A DNA stretch of 35,372 nucleotides from Verrucomicrobiota bacterium (GTDB lineage Bacteria > Verrucomicrobiota > Verrucomicrobiia > Opitutales > Opitutaceae): positions 1 through 35,372 of the forward strand of contig JANXRL010000090.1 in NCBI GenBank assembly GCA_025352985.1. Direction: 5' to 3'. The position numbers were made by a program, and so were the translations under genes. This document shows positions 24,764 through 31,743 of this stretch, piece after piece. The notes beneath the pieces were generated by a model that was not told the origin of the DNA, did not search any database, and saw nothing but the letters and a program-made list of their open reading frames with translations. Position 1 is the first letter of the stretch. Each line of letters begins with the position of its first letter.

Positions 24764-24791
24764 AAAACCGCGGCTGGAGGGCCGCGGTTTT
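24764..24791. terminator. Bidirectional-looking rho-independent terminator
   Basis: AAAACCGCGGC tggagg GCCGCGGTTTT perfect 11-bp stem, between the 38-aa ORF and rimO. Confidence 0.8.
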
Positions 24792-26839: not shown

Positions 26840-26850
26840 CGCAGAAGCTA

Positions 26851-26918
26851 TTTGTCACTTAATAAGTGACAAATGTGAAGTGTGGAGGACTTAGAATTGT
26901 CACTTATTAAGTGACAAA
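26851..26918. repeat. Pair of mirrored palindromes, GTCACTTA-n-TAAGTGAC
   Basis: 26851-26873 TTTGTCACTTAATAAGTGACAAA and 26897-26918 TTGTCACTTATTAAGTGACAAA. Each is a palindrome, and the second equals the reverse complement of the first apart from one flanking base. Confidence 0.9.
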
Positions 26919-30309: not shown

Positions 30310-31743
30310 TTAGATTGCGGTGAGGGCTTCGTGCATGGCGCGACCTTTATCGAGGGTTTCCTGGTATTCAGAGGCGGGGTCGGAGTCCCACACGATGCCG
30401 CCTCCGACGGAGTAATAGGCACGGCCGCCGGTGCAGGTGAGGGTGCGGATGGCGATGTTGAGGTCGCAGTCGCCGTCGAAGCCGATGTAGCCGATCGCAC
30501 CGGTGTAAACGTGGCGGCGGCGGGGTTCCAGTTCGTCGATGATCTGCATGGCGCGAATTTTGGGGGCGCCAGTGATGGAGCCGCCGGGGAAGGTGGCGCG
30601 GAGACAATCAATGACGTCGCAATCGGGGCGGAGGGTGCCGGAGACGTTGGCGACGAGGTGGTGGACGGTGGGGTGGGATTCGAGGTGCCAGAGGTCGGTG
30701 ACGCGGACGGAGCCGTATTCGCAGACACGGCCGAGGTCGTTGCGTTCGAGATCCACGATCATGAGGAGTTCGGCGCGGTCTTTGGGGCTGGCGAGGAGGT
30801 CGGAGGCGAGGCGGGCGTCGGTGGTCGCGTCGGGGTCGCGGCGGCGGGTGCCTTTGATGGGGCGGGTTTCGACGTGGCGTCCGTGGATGCGGAGGAAGCG
30901 TTCGGGGGAGCTGCTGGCGATCTGGACGGGGCCGAAGTTGAGGTAGGAGGCGAAGGGGGCGGCGCTGCGAGCGCGGAGGCGTTCGTAGAGGGCGAAGGGC
31001 GGGCAGGGGAGCGGGGTGGAGAAGCGTTGGGTGAGGTTGACCTGATAGACGTCGCCGGAAGCGATGTAGGATTTTATGCGGGCGATGGCGGCGGTGTATG
31101 AAGCGGGAGTGTAGTTGGAGGAAGGAACGGCAGGGACGGGCAAAGGCAAAGTGTCACCTAATGGGTGACACTTTGGGTTGGGTGAGGGGGGGGTAGTGAC
31201 GACGGCGCGAAGGCGGGCGAGGATGGCGGGGGCGGGGGTGGTGTGGACGGGGTTGGCGACGAGCCAGGTGCGGGCGGTGGCGTGTTCGTGGGCGATCACG
31301 CCGTCGTAAAAGGCGAACGCGAGGTCGGGGACTTCGGGAAGATCGTCGGGCGACGTGCGCGGAATTTTTTCGAGCTGGGTGCAGAGTTCGTAGCCGAAAA
31401 AGCCGACGGCGCCGCCGGTGAAAGGGATGGCATGCGTAGGAATGAAAGTGTCACCTATTAGGTGACACTGTGCTTGGGGGCGGTGGTAGCGGCGGAGGAG
31501 TGACTGGAGTTCGGCGAGGGGATCGCCTAGGTGAATCTCGGTATGGCCGTCGAGGGTGATCGTGATGGCGCGGCCTTTGGCGGTGAAGACGAGGAATGGG
31601 TCGAAACCAATAAACGAATACGCACCAAGGCCGCCGACGGAGAGTCCGCTGTCGAGGAAGAAGGCGTGCGGGAGACCGTGCAGGCCGGCGAAGAGCGCGG
31701 CGGGCGTGACGGCGAGCGGGAGTTCTTCGATGATGACGGACAT
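30310..31743 (-). CDS. pabB: Aminodeoxychorismate synthase component I (chorismate-binding)
   Basis: GAVGFFGYEL, SGDVYQVNLTQRF, SSSPERFLRI, TRPIKGTRRRD, LMIVDLERNDLGRV, FPGGSITGAPKIRAMQIIDELEP. Confidence 0.93.
   Translation of the reverse strand: MSVIIEELPLAVTPAALFAGLHGLPHAFFLDSGLSVGGLGAYSFIGFDPFLVFTAKGRAITITLDGHTEIHLGDPLAELQSLLRRYHRPQAQCHLIGDTFIPTHAIPFTGGAVGFFGYELCTQLEKIPRTSPDDLPEVPDLAFAFYDGVIAHEHATARTWLVANPVHTTPAPAILARLRAVVTTPPSPNPKCHPLGDTLPLPVPAVPSSNYTPASYTAAIARIKSYIASGDVYQVNLTQRFSTPLPCPPFALYERLRARSAAPFASYLNFGPVQIASSSPERFLRIHGRHVETRPIKGTRRRDPDATTDARLASDLLASPKDRAELLMIVDLERNDLGRVCEYGSVRVTDLWHLESHPTVHHLVANVSGTLRPDCDVIDCLRATFPGGSITGAPKIRAMQIIDELEPRRRHVYTGAIGYIGFDGDCDLNIAIRTLTCTGGRAYYSVGGGIVWDSDPASEYQETLDKGRAMHEALTAI
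31147..31175. repeat. Palindromic element inside pabB (copy 1)
   Basis: CAAAGTGTCACC taatg GGTGACACTTTG, 12-bp perfect arms; translated in the pabB frame as K-C-H-P-L-G-D-T-L. Confidence 0.9.
31447..31469. repeat. Palindromic element inside pabB (copy 2)
   Basis: AGTGTCACCTA t TAGGTGACACT, 11-bp perfect arms; translated in the pabB frame as Q-C-H-L-I-G-D-T. Confidence 0.9.

Follow-up and report, generated by a model that had tools for sequence, protein, structure and literature searches.

The window analysed here is a stretch of 35,372 nucleotides from a genome of the Opitutaceae (Verrucomicrobiota). Positions 30310-31743, on the minus strand, encode pabB, the gene for aminodeoxychorismate synthase component I. 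Its product is an intact protein of 477 amino acids, in which a Pfam search recovers PF04715 (Anth_synt_I_N, E 1e-32) and PF00425 (Chorismate_bind, E 1e-91), and which has relatives of known structure in the PDB (7qu9, 7pi1, 1k0e). The first-pass annotation had described two near-identical palindromes inside this gene, and both are indeed present and near-perfect: CAAAGTGTCACCTAATGGGTGACACTTTG at 31147-31175, in what is here called linker 2, with one half-centre mismatch (TAATG), and AGTGTCACCTATTAGGTGACACT at 31447-31469, in linker 1. The cores of these type I palindromes start 297 bp apart with 276 bp in between, and their pattern has no match in 100 dinucleotide shuffles of the window. As also claimed, they share a reading, being translated as KCHPLGDT and QCHLIGDT in the single open frame of pabB. 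Two of the three frames through a type I palindrome contain a stop, and the open one encodes CHL[I/L]GDT from either strand; any copy tolerated within a gene is therefore read in this way.

The placement of both octapeptides in variable linkers is borne out by alignment, where they correspond to gaps relative to E. coli PabB (1k0e). Among relatives from the same genus the inserts are lineage-specific, and the same linkers carry different octapeptides (CHLISDK, CNLISDK, CNLISY, SNPIGYF), an observation that led to the general pattern TGTNACNTANTANGTNACA. We propose that CHLIGDT and CHPLGDT in PabB are by-products of tolerated palindromes.

Palindromes of the general form N7-TAWTA-N7, 19-43 bp in size, are dispersed across the Opitutaceae, either between genes or in-frame within them. 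The repetition expected from the first-pass annotation is found in the window's own genome, with 7 copies of the strict palindrome GTGTCACCNANTNGGTGACAC and 33 of the broader family TGTNACNTANTANGTNACA, against none for a reversed control pattern. The strict type reaches 54 copies in one relative from the genus; outside the genus, the 24 genomes sampled from the family and order have none. When 85,462 species genomes were scanned for the exact type, the matches were nearly all metagenome-assembled genomes labelled Opitutae, Opitutaceae or Verrucomicrobia; a pattern search of viral contigs returned none. One exact type I palindrome occurs outside the Verrucomicrobiota, in Mucilaginibacter sp. 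JRF (L097), where it may have arisen by chance or come by transfer. The general form is found in 55 of 120 genomes of the family, representing 30 of 49 genera, again with no match to the reversed control. The window itself contains a further pair, ATTTGTCACTTAATAAGTGACAAAT at 26850-26874 and TTGTCACTTATTAAGTGACAA at 26897-26917, 45 bp apart from start to start, which belongs to another subtype (CTTAWTAAG, type II) than the palindromes in pabB. Elsewhere in the window, positions 24764-24791 form a terminator-like stem-loop, AAAACCGCGGCTGGAGGGCCGCGGTTTT, that is common to the sister genome G005.

In a related genus, two pairs of palindromes were found around a small gene that encodes a helix-turn-helix (HTH) protein. 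The product, of about 117-131 amino acids, has a C-terminal XRE/Cro-like HTH and a conserved LRPGxDTPLWN motif. Pfam, NCBIfam and PADLOC contain no family that matches it above cut-off. The best Pfam match is YdaS_toxin (PF15943; E 1.5e-4, 22.0 bits against a gathering cut-off of 30 bits), a weak similarity that extends over the HTH; unlike YdaS, the family described here has about 55 additional N-terminal residues bearing the LRPGxDTPLWN motif. An AlphaFold2 model, built from a shallow alignment of 5 sequences (mean pLDDT 71), predicts a long N-terminal helix and an HTH bundle. Its Foldseek matches are weak (none with E below 0.001), the top ones being mostly XRE-type regulators, antitoxins and controller proteins. 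The window's own genome has two such genes; type I palindromes flank the one at about C185:16538-16888, and type II palindromes the one at about C140:8672-9064. HTH genes of this family occur in 55 of the 120 family genomes and, among 241 sampled genomes of the phylum, are confined to the Opitutaceae except for one weak match. An origin from phages or plasmids was considered for both the palindrome and the HTH gene and rejected, as neither has a match in phages, plasmids or viral contigs at the sensitivity of the pattern and tblastn searches.

The association between HTH gene and palindrome is general. Matching 19-bp palindromes lie on both sides of 65 of the 90 HTH genes with usable flanks, compared with 12 of 600 control windows; the other 25, some of them at incomplete loci, have no matched pair. 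A divergent clade (PQRLSDY) in G007 (L340) and G011 (L348) has flanks without recognisable matched palindromes. The arms around HTH genes vary widely (TGTCAC, AGTAACC, TTTCAC, ATGTTCG, AAGTCCG, TTTGCCG and others) around a nearly constant TAWTA centre, and they vary with the protein. The recognition-helix motif PRQR[VI] goes with a TGTCA arm in 28 of 31 cases, [PS]RQRL with TGTA[AG] in 8 of 8, PKQR with [AG]GTA[AG] in 8 of 8, [PS]PQRV with TTTCA in 4 of 4, and HR[AG]R with A[AT]GTT in 5 of 5. Motif and arm share 2.34 bits of mutual information, whereas none of 5000 shuffles exceeded 1.59 bits; the statistic is not corrected for phylogeny.

Presence across genomes follows the same association. 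The HTH gene is present in every one of the 30 genomes that have 10 or more generic palindromes (Fisher p 1.8e-13). In another 13 of the 120, which have 1-8 generic palindromes, no HTH gene was detected; 13 have an HTH gene and no generic palindromes, several of these having other palindrome types. The flanks of HTH genes also proved predictive: a dispersed TTTCAC type was predicted from them in G015, G093 and G130 and was found 37, 33 and 28 times, respectively. Elsewhere, TTTCAC palindromes occur 17 times in G055, 23 times in G053 and 1-7 times in seven other genomes, and are absent from the remaining 108 of 120. These covariations suggest that the palindromes are very likely the cognate sites of the HTH protein whose gene they flank.

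The pabB locus, which was fetched without selection for palindromes, allows the association to be followed at fixed positions across the genus. At linker 2, type II occurs in G008, G009 and G004, a TGTAACT type in G010 and an AGTAACC type in G005. At the same offset in linker 1, type I is found in G001, G009 and G011, type II in G008 and G004 and a TGTAACT hybrid in G010, and the palindrome is absent in G005 and G003. The type present usually matches the HTH genes kept by each genome. Type I in pabB accompanies HTH I in G002, HTH I and II in G000, and HTH I among others in G011; type II accompanies HTH I, II and others in G004 and HTH II together with an AGTAACC HTH in G008; G009 has both types and both HTHs; and the AGTAACC type of G005 and the TGTAACT type of G010 each match the only HTH of their genome. 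G003, without a palindrome in pabB, and G006 have neither HTH nor palindromes. G001 has type I palindromes and no type I HTH was found in its genome, which is 77% complete. In G007, a partial pabB locus without palindromes accompanies an HTH without recognised palindromes. No HTH was found in G012, where the pabB palindrome is degenerate and the site orthologous to one in G002 is no longer symmetric. The pabB gene of G004 (C6, L113/L115) is split across two frames, an apparent frameshift that may be a sequencing error or a real disruption.

The sister species G000 and G005 are 90-95% identical around linker 2, and the palindrome type differs at that very position. Such differences between orthologous sites speak against simple insertion followed by decay, and the other reading offered by the first-pass annotation, that of a palindromic DNA-binding site kept within a gene, is the better supported, since palindrome type matches the flanks of the HTH genes and covaries with the recognition helix. 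The palindromes in pabB are thus probably landing sites of a small HTH protein, tolerated even within working genes.

Other genes host palindromes in the same manner. According to a codon model that was trained on the loci retrieved, 41 of 256 copies clearly fall within genes. When their phase is tabulated, as had been suggested, 38 follow the CHL frame, and the other 3, all of the CGTA type, use a frame that no other type leaves open; the count is a consistency check and no test, because openness enters the in-gene classification. A further 9 copies contain a stop and have coding sequence of the same frame on either side; some of them resemble gene ends. Besides pabB, recurrent hosts with differing types at the same position across species are allophanate-hydrolase-like, urea-carboxylase-like and methyltransferase genes, the names of the last three coming from reading the sequences without a family search. 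Overall, 373 comparisons of orthologous sites, counting both directions of each pair, gave the same type in 107, a different type in 146 and no palindrome in 120, proportions that are biased because most loci were fetched for carrying a palindrome.

Copies likely arise by insertion. This we infer, since no clean filled and empty pair was found: a search for an empty site between sister species recovered no clean insertion boundary, in part because G005, in the stretch fetched from it, lacks an equivalent of the window's second pair at 26850-26917 and has about 2 kb of other DNA in its place. The first-pass annotation had likened the pabB palindromes to Rickettsia palindromic elements (RPEs), and much of that likeness stands. 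RPEs also occur in-frame in protein-coding genes and at the same site in orthologues, and RPE groups are reported to differ at some orthologous sites (PMC2229807, PMC3767692); the present palindromes are likewise insert-like, repeated across the genome and situated in variable linkers. Membership in the RPE family is not supported, because RPEs are stem-loops of 105-146 bp (PMC2229807), compared with palindromes of 19-43 bp here. In addition, RPEs have no known partner protein, unlike the present elements with their matching HTH gene.

Pairs of palindromes show a characteristic spacing. Most neighbours lie at distances of 45-47, 53-60 or 65-67 bp, each step being roughly one turn of the helix; three are at 42-44 bp and none at 48-52 or 61-64 bp. 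The best period is 10.25 bp (p 1e-5 against a uniform distribution over 37-67 bp), with related pairs treated as independent and some genomes supplying many of the pairs. Spacer sequences differ in most pairs, so the majority do not represent copies of a single unit. G167 (L285, L286, L287) has short arrays of three palindromes at steps of 53-55 bp with unrelated spacers.

The whole is best explained, and in our judgement with good confidence, by dispersed palindromes that are cognate binding sites of a small dedicated HTH family. An HTH dimer would contact two symmetric N7 half-sites around the TAWTA centre, each clade having its own half-site, borne on both sides of its own gene. Tens of further copies per genome, single or paired about 45, 55 or 66 bp apart, may then be bound, the pair spacing placing the dimers on the same side of the helix. 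Copies would start as small insertions and persist in intergenic regions or, in the sole stop-free frame, at tolerant linkers within genes. If a lineage replaces or modifies its HTH, palindromes at old positions would change type to match.

An ordinary transcription-factor regulon, in which the palindromes are operators of neighbouring genes and the HTH protein an autoregulated repressor or activator, is an unlikely account of the same data. The XRE/Cro-like HTH would suit it, as would the palindrome found just upstream of the HTH gene start in many copies and the helically phased pairs, which recall cooperative operators. Yet the second palindrome lies downstream of the HTH gene, and inserts of about ten codons in enzyme linkers are unusual for operators. 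Moreover, location lacks the promoter bias expected of operators: 51 copies lie in tandem, 19 in divergent and 14 in convergent gaps and 49 in genes, where the gaps themselves number 98, 21 and 24. With about a third of copies (49 of 137) in genes and the intergenic ones not strongly concentrated at promoters or terminators, a simple regulon loses weight. Species of one genus also differ in copy number, which runs from 0 to 83.

A chromosome organiser like Noc or SlmA, whose protein bridges scattered sites and so shapes the nucleoid or times division, is equally improbable. In favour of it are the tens of sites that each genome has both within and between genes and a phasing of pairs that would let dimers meet, and Noc with its NBS, SlmA with its SBS and the mycobacteriophage stoperators do provide precedents for one DNA-binding protein with many scattered sites (PMC4331003, PMC7468209, PMC9283540). 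An organiser sits poorly with a patchy presence in 55 of 120 family genomes and with several paralogues that have different sites in one genome. Noc, SlmA and the stoperator-binding proteins also belong to other families; here, by contrast, site types differ between paralogues and species, and sites flank their own gene and sit in-frame within others.

Dedicated HTH proteins with cognate palindromes are most closely paralleled in layout by REP/REPIN-RAYT systems, without the associated transposase that defines these. Shared features are dispersed palindromes, single and paired, a dedicated gene that bears those palindromes at its flanks (here 65 of 90 HTH genes), a palindrome specific to each protein clade and several systems per genome (PMC3116915, PMC2817692). 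The present partner differs in being XRE-like, with no recognisable transposase domain and no Pfam match to a Y1/HuH tyrosine transposase. Further differences are the conserved TAWTA centre, the occurrence in genes as well as between them, differing spacers and a helically quantised spacing. Inspection of the listed copies and their flanks found neither the GTAG nor the CGTC tag of REP at the palindrome end.

The resemblance raises the idea that a transposase (for example a RAYT) or an insertion sequence with its MITEs moves the palindromes, the HTH gene being incidental; we regard this as very unlikely. As partner, a RAYT/Y1 transposase was rejected for want of association between Y1_Tnp and palindromes (p 0.76), and two genomes at least 93% complete have 9-10 palindromes and no Y1_Tnp. 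Arm sequence, too, follows the HTH and not a transposase. At some sites in G002 (L233, L234, L235, L238, L242), an insertion-sequence-like element of about 1.8 kb with ends CTGGAGTTTGGCC, together with derivatives of about 450-500 bp, sits flush between two palindrome copies, as though the entire palindrome had been duplicated as the target site. This element is not favoured as the source, being seen only there and palindromes occurring without it; it probably targets palindromes.

Less probable still is a purely structural origin, in which the palindromes are kept as hairpins or cruciforms, such as terminators, or owe their symmetry to template-switch correction during replication. In its favour, symmetry continues a few bases past the core: in G000 and G010 it extends to offset 3, and in G002 it reaches offset 9 in patches. 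A first impression that the outer arms covary for at least 10 bases was confirmed only in part. A plain hairpin or terminator role is not favoured given the centre conserved where a loop needs no complementarity, the arms that follow the HTH motif, the coding locations, the orientation and the helical spacing of pairs.

Dedicated HTH proteins and their palindromes may together form a two-part genomic element, in which the gene of a non-catalytic HTH protein is flanked by, and specifies, a palindrome that spreads along the chromosome, enters genes in-frame and is retyped site by site as the protein changes. Such an analogue of REP/RAYT, with a DNA-binding protein alone defining and maintaining the repeats, is a tentative reading that we rate slightly below even. 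A host function for the bound network and a selfish, REP-like population carry roughly equal weight. Searches of the open-access journal literature returned no description of the HTH-palindrome pairing.

The finding accounts for octapeptide inserts in conserved Opitutaceae proteins. It also raises the question of how a protein without a recognisable nuclease or transposase keeps dispersed repeats matched to itself. An undescribed protein family is here tied to a readable DNA recognition code, the arm sequence being largely predictable from four or five residues of the recognition helix. Its paralogues offer a natural series in which DNA-binding specificity may be followed as it co-evolves with dozens of genomic sites.
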